A stretch of 64,000 nt of DNA, taken from Prorocentrum cordatum. Taxonomy: Eukaryota > Sar > Dinophyceae > Prorocentrales > Prorocentraceae. The position numbers and the translations under genes are program-made. Location of the stretch: positions 120,618 to 184,617 of the forward strand of contig CAUYUJ010016145.1 of the NCBI GenBank assembly GCA_963575745.1, read 5' to 3'. This document shows positions 14,668 to 34,879 of this stretch, piece after piece; positions within the stretch are counted from its first letter, which is position 1; each line of letters begins with the position of its first letter. The notes below the pieces were generated by a model. The model saw only the letters and a program-made list of their open reading frames with translations. It was not told the origin of the DNA and did not search any database.

Positions 14668-16200
14668 ATGCCGGGCATGGAGGTCGGCAAGGGGGGTAAC
14701 TCGCAGAAGTCCAACTTCGCATGGTGGCTGATGCAGAGCATATTAACCCTAGGAGGCGCGGTGTACAGTTACAAGTTCGTCGGGACGGCGGGCCTGGGGG
14801 TCTTGTTGGCTTACAAGACCTGGAAGTTCTTCGGCGTCGGTGAGATGATCGAAGACGGCATGAATGTCCTGAAGTTTGCGAGCGAGACGGCCATTCGGAT
14901 CACGGACGCGCACGACCACGTGGTGGAGCGCTGGGAGGAGGGGGCCATGAGGGCCCCTTGCTCGCGGCGCTGGCTGTTTCATTCGTGTTGATGCTGATCT
15001 ACTCGCTGGGTGGCTGCGAGATGAAGCGTAAGAAGATGACGGTTGACGGCTTCGCGACGGACTCGGACAGCGAAATTTCGATTGAACAGGGCACGGCCGC
15101 CTCGGACACGGATGACGACGACGGTCTCATGAGGCATCCTGGGATGAGGCTCCTCCTCGAGCATCAGGCGGCGCTTCAGAGCCAACTGAGAAAGCTGGCC
15201 GCCGAGAAGGACAAGGGCACGCACACGGGCGACGAAGTTCGAGGATTGGACGCGGCTCAGGAGGATGAGTCAGCGCGCCGAGGGATCGACAACCTGACGG
15301 AGCGGCTCGTGGCCCACGAGCGGCAGGTCTCGGACGACCAGGGCCACGGGGGAGGCGCCGAGCGCGGGGCTTGGTGCCCCCCCATCAGCCTAGGAGGTCG
15401 TGCCGTGAAGGACCTTGCTGCGACGGGGGCGAGCGGGAAGCCGGTGGACCACTACATCCAGGAGCTGGAGCAGGAGGCCAAGGATCCGAGGGCGACCATG
15501 CTGAACCAGCTGAGGCAGCGCGAGAACGCGGACTGGAGCATGGGCCTTTTCGGGCTCGGATCGATCCGACGGCGCTGGCTCGGATGTACAAGCATGGGAC
15601 GTCGGCGAAAGCCCAGGTGCAGCAGTGCGCGAGGTCGAAGGAGCTGGAGACGCGCCACGCGGCGAGCGAGATGGCTCTCGCGGCCGCGATCCTGGACAGG
15701 ACGTTGAGTTCCGAACAGGACATGGTGAACAGTCATGCCGCGGAGGTTATCTGCCGTCGCCATTACGGCCTCTTCCGCGCGCCTGAGAACGCGAGGAAGC
15801 AGAGCGATTGGAAGCAGCCGCGCGGGGGGAACGGGACGAGGTGGAAGAGCAAGGCACGGTGGGAGCTGGCGGACGAGTACGACACGGTGGCCCTCGATAA
15901 TGACGACTGGGCCATCGCTGACGCTGATGGGCTGGCGCGCAAACGCTTGGAGCGGAAGCCTTTGTTCAATAAGTACCTTGACGAGGCTTTCCCCAAGCGC
16001 GCAAGGACTGCTCCGAGCAGGGGCGGCCTGCCTCTCCAGCGGCGGGAGGGGTGCAGACAGGCGCGTGCAGTCGCCGCTTCTGCATTGTGCTCGTCTGGCG
16101 CTTGGCGCAGATCGCGCGCGCGATCGAGTTCGTCGAGGGCTGCTTATGGACCCTCGGCGGCAGCCGTGCGCGCCACCAGTTTGTTCGGCCAGCTGAAGGA
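14668..16200 (+). pseudogene. Gag-like protein with two membrane helices, frameshifted
   Basis: From the ATG at 14,668 a hydrophobic stretch (WWLMQSILTLGGAVYSYKF, then GTAGLGVLLAYKTW) suggests one or two membrane helices. A frame change near 14,945-14,957 leads to a second helix (LLAALAVSFVLMLIYSLGG), an acidic linker rich in Asp/Ser and a helical region. Another frame change near 15,560 leads to LARMYKHGTSAKAQVQQCAR, EVICRRHYGLFRAPENARKQ and FNKYLDEAFPKRAR. From memory, similar membrane-plus-helical proteins precede RT in tyrosine-recombinase elements of Symbiodinium and relatives, where they act as gag or a structural protein. Two frameshifts make this copy non-functional. Confidence 0.6.
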
Positions 16201-16440
16201 GTAGGCCCTTGTCGCCAGGAGCGCATGCTTCGAGATGCCATTGGAGTCATCGCGTGGACTTGCTGGCGCGGAGGCTCGGACTCGAGACCCTCTGCGCAGA
16301 GTGCCCCGGGCGTCTTTCTGCGTCGAGGAGAACCCCGAGGGGGCGGAGGCCGCTGCGTTGGATCGACTGACTCTGAAGCGCGGCAACCGGTCCGTGAACG
16401 CTATCTCGCACATGCACCACGGCCTGCTGGACGGGGCGCG
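16201..16440 (+). other. Internal deletion zone where RT should lie
   Basis: Between the gag-like protein and the RNase H remnant there are only about 240 bp and no RT motif, whereas related elements carry some 1.5-2 kb of RT here. I infer a large internal deletion. Confidence 0.5.
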
Positions 16441-16840
16441 GAGCGAGTCGCTGGGACCTGGGACCGCGAGGAGCGTCAGAACGTGCTCGAGTGCAGGGCT
16501 GTGGCGATGGCGCTTCGGAGGCCGGCTCGCTGCCGGCGAAACTGGCATCAGAAGGCGGTGGTGGTCACCGACAGCTTCGCGACGATGGGCTGCTTGAGCA
16601 AGGGGCGCCCGTCGTCGCGGCCTCTCTTGAAGCAGGCGCGGGCCAGCGGGGTCATCCAGCTGGCGCTCGGGATCCGACCGAGGTCATGCTGGGTCAAATC
16701 CGAGCGGAACGCGGCAGACGGCCCCTCGCGCGGAGCGCCCGCGGGGCCCGACCCCGACACGCTCAAGAAGGGAAAGGCCCAGGCGCGAGGATTGCCCCAG
16801 GCGGCGAAGGCGAGGCTTCAGGTGTTTCCAGGGCATCGCC
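16441..16840 (+). pseudogene. RNase H C-terminal half of the retroelement polyprotein
   Basis: One frame reads EERQNVLECRAVAMALRR, then AVVVTDSFATMGCLSKGR and CWVKSERNAADGPSRGAPAG. These correspond to the NVLE box, the DS box and the N-x-AD-x-PSR box at the end of DIRS-type RNase H, and to HINVLECQ, LLDSTVNIGALSKHR and NPADAPSR in the intact element at 31,834-32,094. The first RNase H motif and the RT are absent. The domain would degrade RNA in the cDNA hybrid. Confidence 0.75.
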
Positions 16841-17029
16841 GACGTGGGCCTCAGCACTGGCGACGCTGCCGATGATGGCGAGGAGAGCGGAGGCAGGGCG
16901 AGAGGCTGCGACGGGAGTCCTTGAAGACCAGCGCGAGCAGGAGCGCGGGTTCACGACTCTCCCGAAGCCCTCCTTTTCCTTTGCGCCGTTGCGCAGGCGC
17001 GGGGCCAAGGCGCGGGAGCGTGGCAGCGA

Positions 17030-21740: not shown

Positions 21741-22245
21741 CAGGTCTTATCGGGAGACGCGGCTTTGCCTAGTTTGCCCACGCGTGCCTGTACACGTGTC
21801 GTCAGTCAACGTTGTGCAGACATTGTAACACGAGTTCGGGAGTGCATGTTTTGCAGACGCGGTGTTGCCTTGTCTGGTGAGACACACCTATACGAGTGGA
21901 TCAGATTTTTCTGGGGACACATCGTGACGTAAGCCTACAGATGCAGCGTCTGCAGGCGTGGTTTTCTTCAGCGTGTCCTGGTACAGGTTCATGCGCAGGT
22001 CAGCCCACATCGTGTAGACATCGCGACATGAAGCACTACAAATATTCTTGCTGACGTCGATCAGCCCACTGCGCGTAGACATCACCGAATGAGGTTAGGA
22101 CTGAATCGTTTGCAGACGCGGCTTTCCTTATTTTGTCGTGACACCTGTATGTGTAGATGAGCATGTACATGCGCGCAAGTCGAGTGCGAGTGGGTATAGG
22201 CGTGCGTGTGAGTCAACGCTGTTGCGCATACTTCGTCATGAGTTG
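21741..22245. repeat. Diverged tandem repeat of ~100 bp
   Basis: Recurring GCAGACGCGG(C/T)(T/G)TT and AGTCAACG(T/C)TG or CAGCCCAC(A/T)(T/G)CG(T/C)GTAGACATC blocks indicate about five degenerate copies of a roughly 100-bp unit. Confidence 0.5.
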
Positions 22246-22294
22246 TTCGAGGGGTTGATGAAGTGGCCAATCGGGGAGGCCGTTATGGCACAGC

Positions 22295-24210
22295 TGCCGG
22301 GGCAGAGCTTCCGTGGGGCGGGGATGCCGAGGCCAGGAGGGGGGCGTCGGTGGGTTCCGGGCGAGAAATTGTGGGGTGGGGGGGCCCAAGAACAGAGTTG
22401 CCGTGGGTTGGGGGTGCCGAGGCCAGGAGGGGAGCGTCGGTGGGTTCCGGGCGAGAAATTGTAGGGCGCGGGGTCCCAAGAACAGAGCTGCCGTGGGTTG
22501 GGAGTGCCGGGACCAGGAGGGGGGCGTCGGTGAGTTCCAGGTGAAATTGCGGGGTGGGGGGGCCCAAGACCAGAGGTTCCGTGGGGTGGGGGGGGGCGTC
22601 GGTGGGCTCCGGGCGAGAAATTGTTGTCTGCGGGGTCCCAAGAACAGAGGTTCCGTGGGGCGGGGATGCCGAGGCCAGGAGGGGGGCGTCGGTGCGTTCT
22701 GGGCGAGAAATTGCGGGGGGTGGGGGGGCGTCGGCGGGCTCCGAGCGAGAAATTGTGGGATGGTGGGTCCCAAGAACAGAGGTTCCGTGGGGCGGGGATG
22801 CCGAGGCCAGGAGGGGGAGGTCGGCGGGTTCTGGGCGAGAAATTATTGGGTGGGGGGCCCCAAGAACAGAGGTTCCGTGGGGCGGGGATGCCGAGGCCAG
22901 AAGGGGGGCGTCGGTGGGTTCTGGGCGAGAAATTGTAGAGCGCGGGGTCACAAGAACAAAAGTTATGCGGGGTGGGGATGCCGAGACCATGAAAGAGCGT
23001 CGGTGGGTTCCGGGCGAGAAATTGTGGGGTGGGGGGGCACAAGAACAAAGCTACCGTGGGCCGCGGGTTGGGGGTGCCGAAGCCAGGAGGGGGGCGTCGG
23101 TGGGTTCCGGGCGAGAAATTGCGGGGTGGGGGGTGGGGGATCCGGGCGAGACATTGCGGGGGGGGCGCCCCGAGAACAGAGGTTCCGTGAGGTGCGGGAG
23201 TGCCGAGGCCAGGAGGGGGGCGTCGGTGTGCTCCAGGCGAGAATTTGTAGGGCGGGGGGGCCCAAGGGCAGAGCTGCCGTGGGTTGGGGGTGTCGAGGCC
23301 AGGAGGGGGGAGTCGGTGGGTTTCGGGTGAGAAATTGCGGGGTGGGGGGTCCCAAGAACGGATGTTCCGTGGAATGGAGATGCCGAGGCCTGGAGGGGGG
23401 CGTCGGTGGGTTCCGGGCGAGAAATTGCGGGGTGGGGGGTCCTAAGAAAAGAGCTGCGTGCCGTGAGGTGGGGATGCCGAGGCCAGGAAGGGGGGCGTCG
23501 GTGGGTTCCGGGGGAATGCCGAGGCCAGGAGGGGGGCGTCGATCGGAGGGTTACGGGCGAGAAATTGCAAGGCTGGGGGTCGCAGGACTAGAGCTGCCGT
23601 GTGTTGGGGGTGCCGAGGCCAGGAGGGGCGCCGGTGGGTTCCGGGCAAGAAGCTCAAGGCGGGGAGTCCCAAGAACAGAGGTTCCGCGGGGCGGGGATGC
23701 CGAGGCCAGGAGGGGAAATTCCGGGGTGGGGGGTCGCAAGAACAGAGTTGCCGTGTCTTGGGGGTGCCGAGACCAGGAGGGGGGCGTCGGTGGGAACCGG
23801 GCGAGACCTTGTGGGAGTGGGGGGCCCCAAGAACAGAGCTGCCGTGGGTTGGTTCCGGGCGAGAAATTGTAGGGTGGGGGGGCCCGAGAACAGAGCTGCC
23901 GTGGCGCCGAGGCCAGAAGGGGGGCGTCGGTGGGCTCCAGGTGAGAAATTTCGGGGTGGGGGATCCCAGGAACAGAACTGCCGCGAGGCGAAAGGGGGGC
24001 GTCGGTGGGTTCCGGGCGAGAAATTGTGGGGTGGGGGGTCCCAAGAACAGAGTTGCCGTGGGTTGGGGGTGCCGAGGCCAAAACGAGGGCGTCGGTGGGC
24101 TCCAGGTGAGAAATTGCGGGGGTGGGGGGTCCCAAGAACAAAGCTGCCGTGGGTTGGGGGGGCCGAGGCTAAGAGGGGGGCGTCGGTGGGTTCTGGAAGG
24201 GGGGGGCGGA
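22295..24210 (+). repeat. 93-bp minisatellite, about 20 copies
   Basis: Unit: GATGCCGAGGCCAGGAGGGG, then GCGTCGGTGGGTTCCGGGCG, AGAAATTG and GGGGTCCCAAGAACAGAG. The usual period of 93 bp equals 31 codons, so open frames run through in several frames on both strands and give a 31-residue peptide repeat (RGCRGQEGGVGGFRARNCG). I treat this as non-coding. Confidence 0.9.
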
Positions 24211-24413
24211 CAAATTTCGAATGAATATTGGCTGGGGCAGATGCACGTTTGTTGCCAAGGTCGTCCGCACACGCCTCTGGGGGTCGGCGGATTTCACCCG
24301 TCATCAGTCCAAGCACATATGATCACATTGAGTGGCCAATGCGCCATCTTGCGCGAGGTGATCAGTTCCAGTCCCCCCCTCTTGTGTTCAGCGTGTGTGT
24401 AAATATAAGCACA

Positions 24414-25220: not shown

Positions 25221-25504
25221 CGCGCAAACTTCTCGGGCCTAGGCGGTTCCAGGAGATGTTCCCGGAGGGACCTCCAGGGACATTTGCTTCGGGGGGGCGG
25301 TGATCCACGCCCTGCCCCTTGCCGTCGTCGTCGTTGTTATCGTGGGCGTCATCGTCGTCGGCTCTTTTTGAAACTGTTCGTAGGTTTTTGGTAGAGATTC
25401 GGGGCTCGGAGTTCGATAAGGTTTTTCGCAGTTTTCGGCCCCAAGGGGCCCGTTTTCGGGTCCCGGGAGTACAACATCAACCCCTGGACATGTTGTGGAT
25501 CTAT
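25221..25504. other. No recognised feature
   Basis: Unique-looking sequence before the microsatellite that flanks the large retroelement. Confidence 0.4.
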
Positions 25505-25641
25505 GTATATATATACACACACATACATACATACATACATACATACATACATACATACATACATACACACATACATACATACGTACGTACATACATACAT
25601 ACATACATACATGCATGCATGCATGCATGCATGCATGCATG
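25505..25641. repeat. ACAT/ATGC microsatellite flanking the large retroelement
   Basis: ACATACATACAT array changing to ATGCATGCATGC, which meets repeat A1 at 25,642. The right flank (34,075 on) has the same ACATACAT-then-ATGC order, consistent with insertion into one array. Confidence 0.9.
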
Positions 25642-25728
25642 CATGTATACGTTTACGGTAGATGTGTGGGCGTCAGGGGGGGTGCGTGTCACATCGGCCG
25701 CATTCGCTTGCATGGCAGCTGTTCTGGC
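25642..25728 (+). repeat. Split direct repeat A1
   Basis: CATGTATACGTTTACGGTAG through GGCAGCTGTTCTGGC, 87 bp. It matches A2 at 33,557-33,643, also 87 bp, with two visible differences. Confidence 0.95.
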
Positions 25729-25753
25729 TGGTTCTGCGCCCTCCAGGGAGGGC

Positions 25754-26062
25754 ATGGACGCCCCCGGGACCACCGTGCCGCGCCCTTCGCCCGTGCGATA
25801 CTGCGGGTGGTGCGCGGGACCCCTCGGGCGAGGGGAGTCGCTGGCCCTGGCCGAGGGCGGGTCCCTCCTGGAGGTCTGCGAGCTGTGCTACATCATCGGT
25901 CTGATTCGGCAGGCGGCGTGGCGCGCCCGCCTCAGCGTGGAGGAGAGGGCGGCGCTGCTCGACTCCGCCCGGCTCCTGGGCGCGCTGCTCTCCGCGCTCG
26001 CCGGCCTGGGGCTCGATGGCGCCGAAGGCGAAGGCCGTCGCCAAGGGCAAAGCCAAGGCTAA
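25754..26062 (+). CDS. Small CxxC protein (5' ORF of the retroelement)
   Basis: 102 residues from the ATG at 25,754. It carries two Cys pairs, CGWC (about residues 17-20) and CELC (about 42-45), 21 residues apart, which could bind one zinc ion, followed by a helical region (RARLSVEERAALLDSARLLG). It sits directly after A1 and overlaps the gag-like ORF start at 26,016 by 47 bp in another frame. Its function is unknown; a nucleic-acid-binding or regulatory role in the element is a guess. The reading frame extends upstream of this ATG through A1, but starting inside the terminal repeat is less likely. The intact Cys pairs in this position argue for a real gene. Confidence 0.6.
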   Translation: MDAPGTTVPRPSPVRYCGWCAGPLGRGESLALAEGGSLLEVCELCYIIGLIRQAAWRARLSVEERAALLDSARLLGALLSALAGLGLDGAEGEGRRQGQSQG

Positions 26063-27617
26063 GGCTAAGGCGAAGGCCTTGGGCCGAGGACGCGCCCGCG
26101 GCCGAGGGCGCGGCGCCGGCGGCCTCGGGCGAGGAGCCGCGGGGAGAGGCGGAGGTGCCGCCGCCTTCCCGCCTGTTGCCCCGGGCCTGGCGGCGGCCGC
26201 GGCGGTCGGCGGCGCCGCGGCGGCCGCGCCCGCGGGCGGCGGTGCCGGCGCGCCCGCGGTGCCTGGCCTAGCGGCGCTGCCCGGCCTGCCAGGCTTCGGA
26301 GGCGGCGGGGCTGCTGGGGCGCCCCCGGCGGGCGGCGCCGTGCCTGACGGCGGAGGTGCCCCCCCCAGCGGCGCGGGCGCCGCGCTGGTGGGCGCGCTCG
26401 CGGGCGGCGGCGGCGGCCCTCCTGGAGGCCCTCCTCCTGGCGCGGTGCCGGGGGCCCCGGCGATCCCTGGTGTGCCGATCGCGGTGGCTGGCGGTCCCAT
26501 CGCCCCAGCGGGCGGCGCGCAGCTGGGACCACTCGTGGACGGTCCGTGGCGTCAGGCCGTGACTCTGATTGGCGCCGACTGGCGCCGAGGGGTGAATCTC
26601 GAGCTCCCGACCTTCGACGCAGCTGGAGGCATCAGCGGGACGGCCCTCTTCGAGGTAGAGGAGATCGGCACCACGGGCCCCTCAGGGCAGTACCTGAGCG
26701 CCCAGTTCAGGGGGGCGTCGCTGGCGGCCGAGGCGATGCGGCTGGACGGCCTGTTCCCACCGCGCGGCACCGGGCCTGCGGGCCTCCTGCACTTGCGCGG
26801 GCAGGGACCGGCGCTGTGCGGGGAGCCCGCTGTGCCAGGCCGAGGAGTCCTGCATGTCGAGTGGCTGCGGCTGCGCTCGAACCGCGGGTTCGTGGAGCCG
26901 TGGGTGCGGCCGAGCGCCTTCGGTGGGCGCGGCGGCGGCGGCGCCTTGGCGGGGGGCGCCCCAGCCGGGGGCGCGGCCCCCGACCGCCTGGCGGCAGCTG
27001 CCGCGGCGCGCGCGCAGGCCGCTACGGCGACGCCTGGCCGCGCCGGTGGCGGTCGCGGCCGCCGCCGCCCCCGGAGCTCCTCGGCCTCGCGCAGCGACGA
27101 CGACGGTGAGTCGCGTTTTCGCGAGGCCCCCTCCCGCGGCGGCAGCGCACGGCTGCTGGCGGAGAAGCGCCCAGGCGCCCTGTACGACGAGGCGACGAAG
27201 AACATCGGGCGCGTCATGGGCCTGCGGGAGGGGGCGGACGGCTCAGAGGTTCGAGCGAAGGTCGTGGGCTACCTGCAGGCCGTGGTGTTCGGCCATCACC
27301 CTCCAGGGCAGATGCGGATCAACACTCAGCGGGAGCTGCAGACGCTGGCGACCGCGCTGGACCTGCTGGAGTGTGGGTGCCTGGCGGAGTTGAGCGACGT
27401 GTTGATGCAGCGCTTCAAGGCTCTGGAGCTGTCGCTGTCCGACGCGAGCTGGCAGGTGGCGAGCGAGCTGGAGATCGTGCCGGACGCGCGGCCCTCGCTG
27501 GCCTCGATGGGCGAGCAGGACCTGGCGCGGCGGGCGGCACTGCTGCGCAGGAGGCTGATGGACGCGAAGAGCCGCGGCGCCCTCGGCGGCAAGGGTCAGG
27601 GCGAGCGCCAAGCTTGA
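26016..27617 (+). CDS. Gag-like protein of the retroelement
   Basis: 533 residues. The N-terminus is a Lys/Ala tract (KAKAVAKGKAKAKAKAKALG) followed by Arg/Gly-rich and then long Ala/Gly/Pro low-complexity sequence, probably an RNA-binding disordered region. From about residue 180 a folded-looking part begins (LVDGPWRQAVTLIGADWRRG ... LFEVEEIGTTGPSGQYLSAQ). A second Gly/Arg-rich linker follows, then a helical C-terminal domain (LYDEATKNIGRVMGLREG ... LQTLATALDLLECGCLAELS ... LMQRFKALELSLSDASWQVA). From memory, the last domain resembles the protein preceding RT in other dinoflagellate tyrosine-recombinase elements, and gag function is inferred from order. It overlaps the upstream small ORF, and its end overlaps the open pol frame by 247 bp, so pol may be made by frameshifting. 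Confidence 0.7.
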   Translation: MAPKAKAVAKGKAKAKAKAKALGRGRARGRGRGAGGLGRGAAGRGGGAAAFPPVAPGLAAAAAVGGAAAAAPAGGGAGAPAVPGLAALPGLPGFGGGGAAGAPPAGGAVPDGGGAPPSGAGAALVGALAGGGGGPPGGPPPGAVPGAPAIPGVPIAVAGGPIAPAGGAQLGPLVDGPWRQAVTLIGADWRRGVNLELPTFDAAGGISGTALFEVEEIGTTGPSGQYLSAQFRGASLAAEAMRLDGLFPPRGTGPAGLLHLRGQGPALCGEPAVPGRGVLHVEWLRLRSNRGFVEPWVRPSAFGGRGGGGALAGGAPAGGAAPDRLAAAAAARAQAATATPGRAGGGRGRRRPRSSSASRSDDDGESRFREAPSRGGSARLLAEKRPGALYDEATKNIGRVMGLREGADGSEVRAKVVGYLQAVVFGHHPPGQMRINTQRELQTLATALDLLECGCLAELSDVLMQRFKALELSLSDASWQVASELEIVPDARPSLASMGEQDLARRAALLRRRLMDAKSRGALGGKGQGERQA

Positions 27618-30600
27618 CCCGAGGAGGCGAGGCGCGGGAGCGGCGGAGCCCACTCGCCCTCGCCGAGCCGCCAGCAGGGCCGCGGTCGCGGGAAGAGCCG
27701 CGGGCGCGGCCGAGGCCGCTTCTCCCCCCTGCCGGCGGGGAGCCCAGCACGGCCTTGGGCAGGGCCCGCAGCCGCAGCCCCGCCCGCGGGTCCGCCAGGC
27801 GCAGCGCGCTCAGGCAGCGCGGGCAGGTCACCGTCTCCGGGGGCGCTGAGGACGCCTCGAGGCGACAGCCCGCACCCGAGGGCGGCGGACGGGCCGAGGC
27901 GTGTCTCGCTGGCGACGAGCCCGGAGCGCCACGTCATCAGGCAGGACCAGCCCGCGGCTGCGGCGGCAGCGGGCCTGCAGCAAGGTCCGCCGCGAGGCCC
28001 GGCCCCCCCGAGCGGCCGCCGCCGTGGCGGCAGGAAGCACCGGGGCCGAGGCCGAGGCGGCCTTCCTGCGACGCTGGGGTGAGGCAGCGAGCTGATGGTG
28101 CCAGCGCTGATGATGCGCGTGCGAGTGCGACCGACTTTGGTGTGGTTGCCCGCTCGCGCAGACCGCCCTGGACTTCACCGTCGCGCTCGCCGCCTCCGAG
28201 ATTGGCTCCTGACCGTGGCGGCGCTGCCGCCTCTCGCCACCCAGCGCCCTCGTCGTGCCAGCCGGCCTGTGGTACGGATGCCGACTGTGACGGCGATCCG
28301 CTGGCAGAGTGGCGCGAGTGGGCTGGCGCGGCGAGCGATCTTCTACGAGAACCTTTCGACGTGGGCCCCGTGTTGTTGAACATAGTCCGCCAGTTCCCAG
28401 GCTCCTTCGGTCGCTTCACTAGATATTCCCTCGAGGTAAAGCCACGCGAGCATCCGGCCGACATGGGAGGTCGGCTTCAGCGAGATCTGTTGCCGTTACC
28501 ATACCCTTCGATCACCAGGTCCCAGATCGCCGAGCAGGGCGAGGACCCTTTGAGCGACAAGGAGTGGGAAGGACTACACTGCAGGCTGGTGGTCACTGTC
28601 CTGGCGCTAAACTGGGAGTCTGGGTTCCGCCCCCTGCAGCTGGCCAGGCCCTGCCGAGGTCGAGCCAACGCCGCGCAGCAGGCAGCCCTGGTCGCTCTCG
28701 GCCGCCGCCTCCTCTTGGCTACGCGGGCCGAGTCTGCTTCGCCGCCAGATCTTGACTGGAACGCGCGGCTGAAGGACCGCAAGATCGGCTACGGCGGGGA
28801 CGAGATCTCGGCCCCGCATCGGCTGACGCTGGAGCAGGTGCTGGACGGGCTGCCTCCGCCGGGCGTCGCGGCCCCCATCGAGGCGGCCGACCTCGCGACG
28901 GGGTTCGTGCGTGAGGCCCTCCTGGACCCGACGCTAGTGCTGCTGCCCGCTGCCCTGCGGCGGCCCGCGCCGACATCTGCGCGCGCGTGGGCCTCGCTCG
29001 AGGAGTGGCATCGGATTGTGCGGGCGCTCCACGAGCGCGGGATGGCGTCGGCGATCCCGAGCAGCGAGATTGCCTGTCGCGACGGAGCCCCGCTCCTGAA
29101 CGGGGCGCTCGGGGTGCCCAAGCCCCACGACGAGCCCATGGTCTGCAGCGACGGCGAGCGCAGGCCGGTCCTGAGGCCGATCACCAACCTCATCCCCTCG
29201 AACGCGTGCCAGGAGTGCATCGTGGGAGACACCCCTGAGATGCCGACCATGAGCCAGCTGAACGGCCTGGTGCTGACCGAGTCGGAGGATCTCCTGTGGA
29301 GCGGCGCGGACAGAAAGGCCTTCTTCTACGTCTTCCGCGCGCCGCCTGCGCGGTGGCCTTACATGGTGATAGGGCCGCCCGTCCCCTCGGAGTTGCTTGG
29401 CCTGAAGGACGGTGGGACCACGCACATCTGCCTGCGGGTGATCGGCATGGGCTGGATCAGTGCCGCGGGCGTGACGACCCACCTCCACCGGAACATGCTG
29501 CGGCGGAGCGCCTCTGTCCCTCGCGGCCTGCCGCCCAGCCAGGAGATTACTCGGCGCCGACGGCTGCCGTTCAGCGTGGAGAAGCCGTGCCCTCCGGCGT
29601 GGATGGTCTACATTGACAACCTGGAGGTCGCGGAGGTCGCGAGCAAGTCCGAGGCCACGACGCTGCGAGGGACGGTGCCCGAGCTCATCTCCGAGGCTCG
29701 CGCCTGCTATGCGGCTGCGGGCTCCCCGGGGTCGCCGGCCAAGGACATCCATCGAGTGCCGCGAGCGACGACCTTGGGGGAGCTCATCGACGGGGTCGAG
29801 GGCGTTCGGCGGCCCCCTGCGGGTTACCTTACCGAGATGGCCAGCCTCACGCTGTGGACGCTGAGCAAGAAGCGGGCCAGCATGCGGCTGGTGCGCATTC
29901 TGCTGGGCCGCTGGGTTCGTGTTCACTGCTTTCGGCGGCCACTGGCGGCCAGCTTTGCCTACACCTGGAAGTGGCTCGGGAACCCGCGCACTGGCGGCCG
30001 CTTCAGCGTGAGCGTGGTCGAGGACCTCTTGATGCGCCTTGCGCTGTCAGGGCTTTGCGTCGCTGACCTGCGCCTCGAAGTCGACCCCCTGGTGACCGCG
30101 TCGGATGCCTCGGAGGCCGCTGGCGCCGTGGTCTACGGCTACGCCCTCTCCGACCGCGGGCGCGCGCTGGCCGAGAGGCGGCAGCGGCCCGCGAACGCCG
30201 CCTGCGAGGAGGAGACCGCCCTCGTGACTGTCTTCGACGGCATCGGCGGCGGGCGCCGGGCTTTCGAGATCCTCGGACTGGTCCCTGCCGTGCACCTGTC
30301 ATTCGAGGTTGACCCCACGGCGGTGCGGGTGGCCCGGCGCAGCTACCCCAGCACGCAGCACCTGGGGGACGTGACGGAGGCGGACCCGGCGGCCCTGGCA
30401 GCCCTGCTGCGCGCCCGAGGCCAGGTGTCGCGTGTGCTGGTGGTGGGCGGCTTCCCGTGCCAGGTCTTCGCGGGCCTCAACGTTGCTCGGCAGGGTCTCG
30501 ACGACCCGCGCGCGGGCCTGTCTGACCACATGGTGCGGATCGTGGACGGGCTGCGGACGGCCATGCCGGAGGCGTCGATCGACTTCCTCGGGGAGAACGT

Positions 30601-31327
30601 CGCGTCGATGCCCGAGTGCAACGTGCTGCGCCTGAACCAGCTCTTCGGCCGCATCCCGCTGGAGATTGAGGCGGGGGATGTCGGCTGGGTCAGACGTCCG
30701 CGGCTCTACTGGGCTTCGTGGGACCTCCTGCCGTCCTTCGAGGCTGAGCCCGTCGTGGTGCGGGCCAAGACCCAGGACGTTCGGCGCGCCTGCAAGGTGG
30801 CGCTGAAGGCGGAGCGGCCGCCGCTCGAGGAGTGGCTCCCGCCCGGGGCTGTGTGTCCGGGTCCCGCTGCAGGGGAGCCGCTCCCGACCTTCGTGCGCTG
30901 GACGCCGCGCTCGCAGCCGCGCCCCAGGCCTGCGGGCATCGGGGAGTGCAGCGCTGCTGAGCTGGCGCGCTGGGAGGCGGCGGGCTTCGCTTCGCCGCCC
31001 TACCAGTTCCGTGACAAGTGGTGCATCCACCAGGCGGATGGCCGCGTGGAGCCGCCTCACGCGACCATACGAGAGAAGCTGATGGGCTTCCCGGAGGGCC
31101 ACACCGCGCCGTGCATGACGAGCAGCCAGGCGAAGGCCGAGCCCGCCAAGTACGAGTTCTTCGGCGGTCGCTCGTGGGCAACTCCTTCCAGTGCGAGGTC
31201 GTGGCCTGGATCATCAGCCACTGGGCCGTCGGAGCTGGGCTGCTGGTCTCGGTGCCCTCGCTGGGTGAGCTGCGCGAGAGTGCGCGAGCCTGGGCTGGTG
31301 GCAGGAAGCTGTGGGCCGGCGACGTGA
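27371..31327 (+). CDS. Retroelement polyprotein: RT, RNase H start, C5 DNA methyltransferase
   Basis: One open frame of about 3.9 kb; the true start is uncertain. The first in-frame ATG is at 28,463, but conserved-looking sequence begins earlier, and the frame overlaps gag, so -1 frameshifting is plausible. Order: RT with GALGVPKPHD (about 29,100), motif A GADRKAFFYVF (about 29,300-29,335) and catalytic YIDN at 29,609-29,620 (YxDD-type with Asn second); RNase H first motif VTASDASEAAG at 30,092-30,124; then from 30,220 a C5 methyltransferase with motif I VFDGIGGGRRAFEIL, motif IV GGFPCQ with catalytic Cys at 30,458-30,460, ENV at 30,593-30,601, and GFPEGHT near 31,085-31,105. The frame then leaves the domain through a frameshift near 31,160; residues after that are out of frame. 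The enzyme would copy element RNA and could methylate DNA at cytosine. Confidence 0.88.
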   Translation: MWVPGGVERRVDAALQGSGAVAVRRELAGGERAGDRAGRAALAGLDGRAGPGAAGGTAAQEADGREEPRRPRRQGSGRAPSLTRGGEARERRSPLALAEPPAGPRSREEPRARPRPLLPPAGGEPSTALGRARSRSPARGSARRSALRQRGQVTVSGGAEDASRRQPAPEGGGRAEACLAGDEPGAPRHQAGPARGCGGSGPAARSAARPGPPERPPPWRQEAPGPRPRRPSCDAGVRQRADGASADDARASATDFGVVARSRRPPWTSPSRSPPPRLAPDRGGAAASRHPAPSSCQPACGTDADCDGDPLAEWREWAGAASDLLREPFDVGPVLLNIVRQFPGSFGRFTRYSLEVKPREHPADMGGRLQRDLLPLPYPSITRSQIAEQGEDPLSDKEWEGLHCRLVVTVLALNWESGFRPLQLARPCRGRANAAQQAALVALGRRLLLATRAESASPPDLDWNARLKDRKIGYGGDEISAPHRLTLEQVLDGLPPPGVAAPIEAADLATGFVREALLDPTLVLLPAALRRPAPTSARAWASLEEWHRIVRALHERGMASAIPSSEIACRDGAPLLNGALGVPKPHDEPMVCSDGERRPVLRPITNLIPSNACQECIVGDTPEMPTMSQLNGLVLTESEDLLWSGADRKAFFYVFRAPPARWPYMVIGPPVPSELLGLKDGGTTHICLRVIGMGWISAAGVTTHLHRNMLRRSASVPRGLPPSQEITRRRRLPFSVEKPCPPAWMVYIDNLEVAEVASKSEATTLRGTVPELISEARACYAAAGSPGSPAKDIHRVPRATTLGELIDGVEGVRRPPAGYLTEMASLTLWTLSKKRASMRLVRILLGRWVRVHCFRRPLAASFAYTWKWLGNPRTGGRFSVSVVEDLLMRLALSGLCVADLRLEVDPLVTASDASEAAGAVVYGYALSDRGRALAERRQRPANAACEEETALVTVFDGIGGGRRAFEILGLVPAVHLSFEVDPTAVRVARRSYPSTQHLGDVTEADPAALAALLRARGQVSRVLVVGGFPCQVFAGLNVARQGLDDPRAGLSDHMVRIVDGLRTAMPEASIDFLGENVASMPECNVLRLNQLFGRIPLEIEAGDVGWVRRPRLYWASWDLLPSFEAEPVVVRAKTQDVRRACKVALKAERPPLEEWLPPGAVCPGPAAGEPLPTFVRWTPRSQPRPRPAGIGECSAAELARWEAAGFASPPYQFRDKWCIHQADGRVEPPHATIREKLMGFPEGHTAPCMTSSQAKAEPAKYEFFGGRSWATPSSARSWPGSSATGPSELGCWSRCPRWVSCARVREPGLVAGSCGPAT

Positions 31328-32109
31328 CGTCGCTGCGGTGCGGTCGCTCCGAGATCGACGAGGGCCTGCACGCCAAGCTGGACCAGGCTGGCGGGCCCAT
31401 CTACGTGGGTCGTGGGTCTCGCCGCTGGGGGCTGGCTGCCTCGCGGTGGGGCAACCCTTTCACGATCAGCCCCGAGCGGTCACGCGAGGACGCTGTTGCC
31501 CTGCTCGCTGGTTGGATCCGCACGCAGCCCACCTTCCTGCAGAGCTTGGAGACGCTGCGCGGGGCCCTACTGGTCTGTCACTGTGGGCCCGACCAGGCGT
31601 GCCATGCCGACATCCTCTTGGCGGAATTGGCGAAGCGTGACGTGGTGGAGCGGCGCGAGGTGGACGCGTCCAGACGCATCGCCATGGGGCTCGTCATGGC
31701 GTGCCACAACGACGGAGCAGACATCAGGACCGATGGCGCCTCGGAGGCGCTCGGCAAGATCTTCCCGCGGCAGGAGATCGACTCAGGCATTTGGCGGTGG
31801 CGCAAGGCAAGGCAGCTAGTGTGGGATGCAGCAGAGCACATCAACGTTCTTGAGTGCCAGGGCGCACTGATGATGATTCGATGGCGGGCGCGGTCGGTGC
31901 GCCGCCATCAGTGCGTCTTCCTGCACCTGCTCGACAGCACGGTCAACATCGGTGCGCTGTCCAAGCACCGTTCCAGCAGTCCTCAGCTCAACAAGGTGGC
32001 GCGGACCTTCTCGGCGTGGGAGCTTGCGATGGGCGCGCGGGCGGTCTTCGGCTTCACGTCGTCGGCTCGCAACCCCGCGGACGCCCCCTCGCGTCTCCGC
32101 GATGGGTAA
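31161..32109 (+). CDS. Continuation of the polyprotein: DNMT motif X, DUF4326-like domain, RNase H end
   Basis: In the frame one step back from the upstream polyprotein. RSLVGNSFQCEVVAWI (31,168-31,215) is motif X of the C5 methyltransferase, proving that both frames belong to one protein. Next, IYVGRGSRRWGLAASRWGNP (from about 31,399) and LLVCHCGPDQACHADILLAE (to about 31,630) match the start and end of DUF4326, with WGNPF and the Cys/His cluster present. Then HINVLECQGALMMIRW (31,834-31,880), LLDSTVNIGALSKHRSS and NPADAPSR (32,071-32,094) complete the RNase H. The stop TAA at 32,107-32,109 overlaps the recombinase ATG. DUF4326 has no established role that I know of here. The frameshift could be a mutation, a sequencing error or, less likely, programmed. 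Confidence 0.85.
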
Positions 32110-33046
32110 GAAGCGGAGTAGCCCTGCTGACCGCCGCGCCGCCAGAGCTGGACTGGGGAAGCTGAGAGACGCCAGGATAAAGGCCTCGACACTGGCCCGC
32201 TACCGTGGCGCCGCTCAGCGTTTTGTTGACTACCTTGCTGCCAATAACCTGCCGCTGCCTTTCACCTGGGACGATATTGATATCTGCCTGCAAGATTATC
32301 TTGAGCACTTGTGGGCCGAGGGCGCCACAAAAGGAGAAGCCAATGACACCCTCAGCAGCGTGCAGCACCTGCTGAGGATACGACGCCGCTATCCTGGCGC
32401 TTGGCAGCTGCTGACAGTCTGGGGCAGACTGGAGATCCCTCAGCGCGCGCCGCCGATGCCTGCCCAGGTGTGCACGGCGCTCGCCGGTTGGGCGCTCAGC
32501 CGCGGAGAGGTGGCCTTCGCGGCCGCGCTGCTCGTGGCCTTCCATCTCTGTCTCCGCACTGGCGAGGCTTTGGGGCTGAGTGGCGGCGTCATCTTTCTAA
32601 AGCCCTGTGGCCGAGGCGCGGTGTCGTTGCCCTGGACCAAGACCTCTTGCCAGAAGGGCGCGCGGGAGCAAGTCACGCTTGACGACCCGCTGGTTGGGGC
32701 AGTCGTCCATATGCAGCTCCAGCGTGACAGCCGGCTCTGGCCCGGCACGACGCGCGCCTTTCACGACTTGTTCCGTACTGGGCTCCAGCAGATCGGTCGC
32801 AGGCACCTCGCCCTGTCTCCTTACAGCCTGAGGCGCGGAGGTGCCACGCATGAGTTCCTGCTGTCGGGCGACTTGTCTAAGGTCATGCTGCGCGGGCGCT
32901 GGAGCTCGGCAAGAACGGCAAAGATATACATCCAAGACGGGGCTGCCATCATCGCAGAGATGAAGCTCCAGGATCGTACCCGTTCGGCGCTCCAGCAGTT
33001 CTCTAATACACTTTTCGCTCGAGTCCGAGCGTTTTGCAGCCCGTGA
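32102..33046 (+). CDS. Tyrosine recombinase of the retroelement
   Basis: 314 residues from the ATG at 32,102, which overlaps the polyprotein stop as ATGGGTAA. The frame is open further upstream, but this ATG gives the expected basic start (MGKKRSSPADRRAARAG). The N-terminal SAM-like core-binding domain (KASTLARYRGAAQRFVDYLA) is followed by the catalytic domain: first Arg in LCLRTGEALGL (codon 32,555), YSLRRGGATHEFL with Arg at 32,831 and Tyr where most relatives have His, GRWSS with Trp at 32,900, and the nucleophile Tyr in AKIYIQDG at 32,927. It would integrate circular cDNA by strand exchange without target duplication, as in DIRS and Ngaro elements. The gene looks intact. It ends 134 bp before B1. 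Confidence 0.92.
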   Translation: MGKKRSSPADRRAARAGLGKLRDARIKASTLARYRGAAQRFVDYLAANNLPLPFTWDDIDICLQDYLEHLWAEGATKGEANDTLSSVQHLLRIRRRYPGAWQLLTVWGRLEIPQRAPPMPAQVCTALAGWALSRGEVAFAAALLVAFHLCLRTGEALGLSGGVIFLKPCGRGAVSLPWTKTSCQKGAREQVTLDDPLVGAVVHMQLQRDSRLWPGTTRAFHDLFRTGLQQIGRRHLALSPYSLRRGGATHEFLLSGDLSKVMLRGRWSSARTAKIYIQDGAAIIAEMKLQDRTRSALQQFSNTLFARVRAFCSP

Positions 33047-33179
33047 CCTGCTGCAATAATTTGTGATGTCTGGTGCGAGCTGCTGCCCGCGCTGCCGTCG
33101 CCAGGCTTGACATTTCTTCGGCCTACGGCCAGAGGAAAAACACAGAATGGGGAGCTTGGTGTCTTTTTCGAGAGTTGGC

Positions 33180-34074
33180 GAGCTTCTTGGGCACGGTCCT
33201 GCTGGGCTCTCAGGGGGTTCTCTTTGCTGGGCCCCCCCAAGGCCGTCGAGCCTCCCCTGGCCCCCGAGGCCGTGGAGCGTTCTGGCCCCAGTCTCCCGTG
33301 ATGGTGGCCGACCCCAGTCTGCGGATGGTGGTCTGCGAATCCAGCTCTGGCCTCGGGGTGCGGTCTGTGCTCTGGCGTGGGGGGTCGGTCCGTGCAAAAG
33401 AGAGTAGACCTTTCGAGCTCCGTGCAGAGGCCTCTGCAAATATAAATATAGTGCCCATGGGAGTTTAAGCTCTGTCAACAGCTTTGGCCGATTGAAGAGG
33501 GCAAGACATTTCCCCTTAATTCGATGAGCTATCGCTCACCCCCCGCCTGCCCTACACATGTATACGTTTACGGTAGATGTGTGGGCGTCAGGGGGGGTGC
33601 GTGTCACATCGGCCGCACTCGCATGCATGGCAGCTGTTCTGGCCCACCCACGTACCGCCCTAAGTGGCGAATGCATTGAGTCTCGCGAGAGCTCGAGCTT
33701 CTTGGGCACGGTCCTGCTGGGCTCTCAGGGGGTTCTCTTTGCTGGGCCCCCCCAAGGCCGTCGAGCCTCCCCTGGCCCCCGAGGCCGTGGAGCGTTCTGG
33801 CCCCAGTCTCCCGTGATGGTGGCCGACCCCAGTCTTCGGATGGTGGTCTGCGAATCCAGCCCTGGCCTCGGGGCGCGGTCTGTGCTCTGGCGTGGGGGGT
33901 CGGTCCGTGCAAAAGAGAGTAGACCTTTCGAGCTCCGTGCAGAGGCCTCTGTAAATATAAATATAGTGTCCATGGGAGTTTAAGCTCTGTCAACAGCTTT
34001 GGCCGATTGAAGAGGGAAAGACATTTCTCCTTAATTCGATGAGCTATCGCTCACCCCCCGCCTGCCCCACACAT
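33180..34074 (+). repeat. Split direct repeats B1-A2-B2 of the large retroelement
   Basis: B1 (33,180-33,559) and B2 (33,695-34,074) are both 380 bp with a constant 515-bp offset and about eight differences. A2 (33,557-33,643) starts at the end of B1, overlapping it by about 3 bp. A 51-bp spacer separates A2 from B2. This is the A1-B1-A2-B2 arrangement expected of Ngaro/PAT-type elements. Confidence 0.95.
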
Positions 34075-34250
34075 ACATACATACATGCATGCATGCATGC
34101 ATGCATACATACATACACGCACACACACATACATACATACATACATACATGTATGCATACATACATACATACATACACACATACACACATACATGCATAC
34201 ATACATACATAAACAGATATATCGATATATATATATATATATATATATAG
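34075..34250. repeat. ACAT/ATGC and TA microsatellite
   Basis: ACATACAT with ATGCATGC blocks, ending in ATATATATATATATAG. It forms the right flank of the retroelement and the left flank of the candidate DDE transposon. Confidence 0.9.
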
Positions 34251-34274
34251 CTCGCCCCCTGGTATCATATCATT

Positions 34275-34879
34275 TTCCTTGTTCTCGATACTTCCCACTT
34301 CTGTCTTTGTCAGCCCCCCCCCTCGTATGCTGCCCACTCTCCGTCCGCATCGGCGTCGTTCCTTCCCGGCATTTCTTTCTATGATTCGTTCCTTCTCCTT
34401 TTGATGATGTTCGTTATCCTCCCGATCCCCCCTCCTCCCTCACCCCTCGTCCCTCCTCCTTCGTCCCACCCTTCTCCGTTGCAGGGCCTCGTCATATTCC
34501 ACCCCTTCGCAAGCTTCCTTACCGCCCTCGTTCCTTCTACTCTTTATTGCCCCTCCTACTCTTCATTATCATTGTCGTTCCTTCTACTCGTTTATCGCTG
34601 ATCCGACTTCTCTGCATATCCTCGTCGCTCCTTCTATTCTCCATCGATCTTGGGGGCCTCCCACGAAACTCCCACAAGACGAATCAATATGCGGAGGCCC
34701 CTCCACAAAAGAAATCCATATGCAGGACTCTACTACCAGTCATCCCCCCTCCCTCCTCCCCCCTCCTGCTGCTGGAGGCCCTGGGGGAGAGCGAATGGGC
34801 GGCGGGTGGAGGCCCTGGGGGAGAGGCCCTGGAGGCCCCCTGCGGGGGACAAGAGGAGGAGATGACGGGTCTCGCTCAA
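34275..34879. other. Pyrimidine-rich leader, no gene recognised
   Basis: Repeated TCGTTCCTTC(T/G)(A/C)CTC blocks and CCTCCCTCC runs, then GGAGGCCC(T/C) purine stretches. No coding signal. Confidence 0.45.

Follow-up and report, generated by a model that had tools for sequence, protein, structure and literature searches.

Dinoflagellate retrotransposons are known to have captured DNA methyltransferases (DNMTs), as an earlier note on the DNA analysed here had stated and as has been published (PMC5890265). The closest described elements are those of the SymbioDIRS-Dnmt3 type (de Mendoza et al. 2018, PMC5890265), in which a DNMT3-type domain lies within the polyprotein (Pol), in one open reading frame (ORF) with the reverse transcriptase (RT), a tyrosine recombinase (YR) is encoded by a separate ORF, and the repeats follow the order A-coding-B-A-B; two such structures have been reported, and they differ in domain order. 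What is said here of cited papers refers to the sections and passages of them that were covered. The element studied here lies in a stretch of 64,000 nucleotides (hereafter the window) of Prorocentrum cordatum contig CAUYUJ010016145.1 and resembles SymbioDIRS-Dnmt3 in its dinoflagellate host, in the DNMT3-type domain beside RT in Pol and in the order of its repeats; it also has a separate ORF for a putative recombinase, whose match to Pfam is below threshold. It differs from these elements as described in carrying an additional domain, DUF4326. Judged from its sequence, it is a SymbioDIRS-Dnmt3-like tyrosine-recombinase retrotransposon with a discontinuous RNase H.

Two other described systems are relevant for comparison. 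DIRS1-like elements with a methyltransferase (PMC3266345) also encode Gag, YR and a Pol with RT, RNase H and methyltransferase, but there the methyltransferase follows RNase H and the terminal repeats are inverted, whereas in the window the methyltransferase lies inside RNase H and the repeats are split direct ones. Moreover, the DIRS1-like methyltransferase is Dam-like (PMC5890265) and that of the window is of the C5 type, so that the element falls outside the DIRS1-like group in the strict sense, while its split direct repeats and the presence of both RT and RNase H are those of the DIRS order. DUF4326 (PF14216) is known from phages and nucleocytoplasmic large DNA viruses (PMC9503650, PMC7824862), either as small phage ORFs or fused to SLOG, Macro or NADAR domains, and some viruses fuse it to components of replication or restriction-modification; in the window it is part of a retroelement Pol.

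No report of a DNMT nested in RNase H, or of DUF4326 beside a DNMT, was found in the open-licence texts searched, in line with what the earlier note had supposed; Figure 1e of PMC5890265, which lies outside the covered material, could depict the DNMT as lying between RT and RNase_H. The same literature, including a search combining DUF4326 with retrotransposons, gave no description of DUF4326 in any retroelement. The term DUF is absent from the main text of PMC5890265, and nesting of the DNMT in RNase H is absent from its covered sections. Neither point is made in the covered parts of PMC6338049, PMC12344493, PMC10449503 and PMC9998398, which refer to or build on the 2018 study, or review the DNMTs of dinoflagellates.

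An RNase H domain interrupted by two other domains

All parts of the element are on the forward strand. The predicted RNase H of the window element is divided in two. Its first part (RH1, 30,086–30,178) comprises strands 1 and 2 with the catalytic SDAS motif, the strand order being that of the models of relatives, and the second (RH2, 31,717–32,106) extends from strand 3 to the last motif and contains HINVLE, LLDS and NPADAPSR. Among the motif positions given earlier, SDASE (30,101–30,115) and NPADAPSR (32,071–32,094) are correct, and HINVLECQ begins at 31,837, not at 31,834. Pfam RVT_1 and RNase_H matched nothing in the window up to an E value of 1, and for this reason profiles of relatives were used; those for RH1, the methyltransferase (MT), DUF4326, RH2, RT and YR were made partly from sequences later scored with them. 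The RH1 profile, which takes in 60 residues of the RT end, scores 101 bits over 29,918–30,181. An independent profile was made solely of 12 relatives whose RNase H is uninterrupted, with 20 shuffles as a control. It found RH2 at 31,795–32,091 with 79.4 bits (E 1.3e-23; best of the 20 shuffles, 12.7 bits). A complete RNase H, which the earlier note had named as incompatible with nesting, was seen with this profile on neither side of the insert, and the sole other strong RNase H match in the window (frame 15,982–16,872, 52 bits) belongs to a separate decayed element.

Between the two parts lie two domains, each identified by a hidden Markov model search that the earlier note had proposed. The C5 DNA methyltransferase (30,179–31,362) matches PF00145 with 29.3 bits against a cut-off of 22 (E 7.8e-7, frame 27,110–31,327) and is DNMT3-like, its best PDB matches being DNMT3/DRM proteins. 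All motifs quoted previously are present; FDGIGGG, GGFPCQ, ENV, RRPRLYW and LVGNSF can be read, and we take them to have the roles usually assigned to them. DUF4326 (31,351–31,650, with CxCx5CHAD and WGNPF) matches PF14216 with 60.2 bits against a cut-off of 25 (E 3.2e-16, about 31,393–31,620, frame 31,015–32,109) and scores 126 bits with the profile of relatives. The window Pol is not a single open frame, as it changes frame once inside the methyltransferase, at about 31,100–31,180 (from frame 27,110–31,327 to frame 31,015–32,109), and motif X falls in the second frame. As the frame is uninterrupted in five sister copies, the break is read as a lesion of the window copy, and programmed frameshifting is rejected on the same ground.

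Three protein searches started from nested elements returned 155 proteins, a set in which other domain orders may be under-sampled. The order RH1-MT-RH2 was found in 61 of them, RH1-MT in 22, RH1-RH2 in 20, RH1-MT-DUF-RH2 in 13 and DUF4326 only in 10; the remainder were RH1-MT-DUF (5), MT-RH2 (5), RH1 (4), DUF-RH2 (3), MT (3), none of the domains (3), MT-DUF-RH2 (2), MT-DUF (2) and RH2 (2). In every protein with RH1, MT and RH2 (74 of 74), the methyltransferase is located between the RNase H parts. The sources of these elements are labelled Symbiodinium, Polarella, Durusdinium, Prorocentrum, EukProt entries, and metagenome or assembly records; the EukProt names are presumably those of Symbiodiniaceae. 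Although seeded with nested elements, the RH1 profile also matches all nine uninterrupted proteins P0147–P0155, which are not seeds, with 18–41 bits. In a 60-row alignment (A4), the four acidic residues of RNase H are constant in all non-gap rows (56, 55, 54 and 53), and the D-E-D-D set was recovered by pattern in 72 of 82 proteins selected for the SDAS and HINxLE patterns. The distance from SDAS to HIN is 505 residues in 26 of 54 methyltransferase-only rows, and 47–204 in 17 uninterrupted rows. In the confident predicted structure of the methyltransferase-only relative P0092, the RNase H strand order is broken after strand 2, and the motifs together with the predicted structures of relatives give the strand-helix order and D-E-D-D residues of a type I RNase H.

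The nested order proposed in the earlier note is thus borne out by the 74 relatives, by a fixed genomic spacing, and by the model of P0092. That strands 2 and 3 of RNase H are separated by the methyltransferase and then DUF4326 is, on this sequence evidence, nearly certain, and the models make it very likely that the two RNase H parts build one fold around the insert.

Location and possible role of DUF4326

A PF14216 search of the host genome, a 4.13-Gb assembly in which the window was located at C15296:120,618–184,617, gave at least 302 candidates; 150 were scored, all of them above the cut-off, and 20 loci were fetched at full length. The arrangement of the window, RT-RH1-MT-DUF-RH2-YR, is present at L015, L021, L024, L025 and L029, in each of which RT to RH2 forms one open frame of 3,294 bases. 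In 12 further loci (L012, L013, L014, L016–L020, L022, L023, L028, L030), DUF4326 is located inside RT, and each of the 12 has its methyltransferase nested in RNase H; at L014 and L030, DUF4326 can be read between the MGW and VYIDN motifs, which we take to be RT motifs B and C. RT to RH2 is a single frame in 10 of these 12 loci (at L014:3567-8573 and in its family 1,667–1,669 amino acids, L023 being longer), while L028 and L030 change frame inside the methyltransferase. The ten copies L012, L013, L014, L016–L020, L022 and L023 are 95.7–99.6% identical in DNA (median 97.5), which suggests recent movement. At L026 and L027, DUF4326 is ahead of RT. The earlier picture of DUF4326 beside a DNMT inside RNase H stands, and a second site, inside the RT of a sister family, is to be added to it. 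At the 150 scored places, DUF4326 lies directly before the C-terminal half of RT in at least 71 and directly before RH2 in at least 55, with no overlap between these classes; 24 belong to neither, 9 of them among the loci read. The distance from DUF4326 to RH2 is exactly 76 nucleotides at 46 of these places. Exactly one DUF4326 was counted in the window and in each of 28 loci.

Of eight loci that are shorter, two (L009 and L011) belong to the in-RT type, and L007 was assigned to no type. L031 is another type of retroelement with DUF4326 upstream of a different RT, and L004, L005 and L008 have a DUF4326 protein type in common, the frame of L005 running on into another RT (YYDD) and those of L004 and L008 being shorter. 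Their sequences suggest that DUF4326 was taken up by unrelated retroelements. L006 and L010 look like host genes and group, weakly, with bacterial DUF4326 in the tree. In the same tree the in-RNase H, in-RT and N-terminal copies are near each other with weak support, which would fit either a single capture followed by movement or several captures. A further protein type, P0047, P0055 and P0059 from ENA-source contigs, combines DUF4326 with a common conserved C-terminal part that was matched to no known domain.

In 28 of 28 retroelement rows the CxC..CHxD motif keeps its three cysteines, its histidine and its aspartate; the cysteines and histidine are likewise invariant in all 46 rows of a wider alignment that includes bacterial and three partial viral rows. 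A PDB search with the DUF4326 piece returned a single chance match (E 0.23). A search of IMG/VR with a DUF-RH2 protein returned three loci with DUF4326 at 33–35% and no reported RNase H match. In three phage loci that were read, the neighbours of DUF4326 include thymidylate synthase, DNA polymerase, and a helicase plus PvuII. A published assignment puts DUF4326 in the rhodanese-phosphatase superfamily, with the processing of terminal phosphates on ADP-ribose, or on products of its breakdown, as the predicted activity (PMC9503650). This assignment and the phage neighbours favour a phosphate-handling enzyme working beside a polymerase, and the caution of the earlier note about the function of the domain still applies.

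The alternative that survives best is that DUF4326 is a non-enzymatic spacer or a metal-binding brace (CxC..CH) that places the domains of Pol, with the methyltransferase alone being functional. We regard it as possible but doubtful. It would agree with the occurrence of DUF4326 in linkers and loops at differing places and with its absence from the methyltransferase-only elements found with P0023, as none of 94 matches carried a precomputed PF14216. However, the residues invariant over the 46 rows are kept in the retroelement copies, and exactly one DUF4326 is present, at one place or the other, in each of 17 elements that were fetched at full length and have one of the two main arrangements, as well as in the window, which fits one needed function better than two different braces. 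DUF4326 is more likely to be catalytic than structural, and its presence inside the RT of sister elements suggests that it is probably a working part of the self-copying of these elements.

A second alternative concerns RNase H itself. A GxDIRxD stretch (31,714–31,734 in the window; residues 746–752 of P0092) precedes strand 3, and could be strand 1 of a complete RNase H located after the insert, the upstream SDAS being a remnant of the RT tether. The stretch is frequent at this place in interrupted proteins, with both aspartates in 51 of 86 by the strict pattern; 50 of 55 non-gap A4 rows retain its second aspartate (D752 of P0092), the P0092 model has a two-residue strand at 748–749, and the window copy stands at a plausible spacing, 40 residues ahead of the glutamate of HINVLE. 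Nevertheless, the strict pattern occurs in none of 17 uninterrupted relatives, which have A[ST]DAS or close variants instead. The SDAS/TDAS aspartate (D285) is kept in 56 of 56 rows, compared with 50 of 55 for D752 and 38 of 55 for D748, the latter position being a glutamate in 17 A4 rows. P0022, P0039, P0107, P0124, P0141 and P0145 lack the second GxDIRxD aspartate but keep SDAS/TDAS, a motif that was part of their selection. The mean pLDDT in the P0092 model is 71 and 48 for the GxDIRxD blocks (741–760), and about 92 for the SDAS strands. GxDIRxD is therefore unlikely to be strand 1, and a complete downstream RNase H is improbable to a high degree. Finally, the idea that the arrangement is a one-off, owed to a fusion by chance, to faulty assembly or to the decay of a copy already dead, to which the frame break and the 2.8% divergence of the B repeats in the window copy might point, can practically be dismissed, as RT to RH2 is open over an identical span in the five sister copies, the DUF4326-RH2 junction recurs at at least 54 genomic places, and the metagenome protein P0029 also carries MT-DUF-RH2.

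Order of capture, constraint and proposed mechanism

In a tree of 97 RH2 sequences rooted on uninterrupted proteins, all DUF4326-bearing copies, including that of the window, form one group (support 0.977). Its sister is the methyltransferase-only set P0032, P0033, P0036 and P0037 (0.948), within the methyltransferase-bearing proteins; the uninterrupted proteins are outside the latter, with low deep supports (0.224, 0.595). This topology suggests that the methyltransferase entered first, in the loop that joins strand 2 to strand 3, and that DUF4326 came later, into the linker from motif X to strand 3.

Selection on the domains was described by pairwise Nei-Gojobori dN/dS, given as medians over pairs with dS over 0.05; the values are descriptive because pairs have branches in common. 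For split domains the best-scoring piece was used; for RT of the in-RT family this is the N-terminal half, and for MT it is a single piece where a frame break splits the domain. In the window family (6 copies, 5–9 of 15 pairs for each domain) the medians are 0.33 for RT, 0.42 for RH1, 0.30 for MT, 0.29 for DUF4326 and 0.28 for RH2. In the in-RT family (12 copies, 32–56 of 66 pairs) they are 0.17, 0.14, 0.17, 0.38 and 0.06, respectively. Both the methyltransferase and DUF4326 thus show signs of constraint.

When tested in yeast, isolated DNMT domains of SymbioDIRS elements showed de novo methylation of CG, and methylation of the complementary DNA (cDNA) upon reverse transcription has been proposed (PMC5890265). 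Nesting in RNase H strengthens this idea because it ties the methyltransferase to the nuclease by which the new strand is laid bare. Pol would make cDNA and its RNase H would strip the RNA; the methyltransferase, held on RNase H, would then meet the new duplex and methylate its CG sites ahead of integration by the recombinase, so that the cDNA would come to resemble host DNA (heavily CG-methylated in Symbiodinium). Such methylation in cis, a possibility raised in the earlier note, is somewhat probable by analogy with the isolated domains. DUF4326 in the same complex would be a small phosphate-handling enzyme, most likely one that frees nucleotides or the ends of nucleic acids from a block of the ADP-ribose or phosphate type, although it is unlikely that its substrate is exactly this. 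Its site in Pol is flexible, as in the sister family it occupies a loop of RT flanked by motifs B and C. More broadly, the loops of Pol might be docking sites for passenger enzymes, with DUF4326 as a general polymerase-side counter-defence enzyme, common to phage replication genes, at least three positions in Pol (in RNase H, in RT and ahead of RT) and unrelated retroelements, which would clear an ADP-ribose- or phosphate-type host mark or block while the DNMT stamps the cDNA as self; we put this forward as a tentative and rather improbable extension.

Several observations weigh against the reading of architecture and mechanism given above. RH1 is placed correctly by the uninterrupted-RNase H profile, but with 2.8 bits, which is not significant by itself, and its identity therefore depends on relatives, conservation and structure. 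The confident P0092 model is without DUF4326, and its RNase H was unconfirmed by fold search: in Foldseek (P0092) and VIA-align (P0092, P0008), all 50 rows listed for P0092 and all those listed for P0008 are methyltransferases, a single domain filling the listing. The packing of the two RNase H parts in one fold is a prediction. The PC motif of the methyltransferase is lost in P0039, L026 and L027 although the insert remains, so methylation is dispensable in some elements. In the in-RT family, the median dN/dS of DUF4326 (0.38) is the highest of the five domains, and single-pair values reach 0.75 (window-family MT) and 0.73 (in-RT DUF4326). The element is known here from its sequence and from predicted structures of relatives. 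Taking these points into account, we give architecture and inferred mechanism together a probability of about 0.6. The alignment of uninterrupted RNase H/RT, compared with the sequences of the PDB, returned only chance matches and a weak RT/RNase H chain (E 0.67).

Two domains nested in a catalytic domain of a retroelement, in many copies and under apparent constraint, constitute an unusual domain architecture. The nesting would physically couple DNA methylation with RNA removal during reverse transcription, so that the reason for the presence of DNA methyltransferases in retrotransposons becomes a testable question. The phage-associated DUF4326 is also placed in the context of a eukaryotic polymerase, where its two alternative positions can be compared. 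Concerning the copies without the PC motif, the methyltransferase-like insert of P0039 lies complete inside RNase H, that of L026 and L027 follows RH1 as usual, and the fragment P0040 is the closest relative of P0039 in the tree.

Organisation of the element and its surroundings

The whole retrotransposon extends over about 8.4 kb (25,642–34,074) in the order A-ORFs-B-A-B. Its split direct repeats are A1 (25,642–25,728) and A2 (33,557–33,643), 97.7% identical, and B1 (33,169–33,559) and B2 (33,686–34,074), 97.2% identical. The repeat order is matched in sister copies: B-A-B was found at the 3' end in all five of those fetched, and the 5' A in four, with none found in L029. The three nearest protein relatives, from Prorocentrum cordatum, are 97–98% identical.

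A gag-like ORF (26,016–27,617, from the first ATG of the open frame 25,905–27,617) is named by position and frame alone, and a Pfam search with it gave zero matches. RT, with its VYIDN box, is located at 28,814–29,917 (505 bits with the profile of relatives). The putative YR ORF (32,102–33,046), whose ATG overlaps the Pol stop, scores 557 bits with a profile made partly from near-identical copies; in Pfam it matched Phage_int_SAM_1 alone, below threshold (E 0.11), and its relative P0024 barely exceeds the PF00589 cut-off (27.2 compared with 27.1 bits).

A CATA/CATG-type microsatellite flanks the element on both sides (about 25,456–25,650 and 34,018–34,280) and is perhaps its target. Upstream, a repeat array with a unit of about 90 bp occupies 22,225–24,217, and a decayed second RNase H part of the same kind lies at 16,447–16,728 (52 bits), where the region upstream of it differs.

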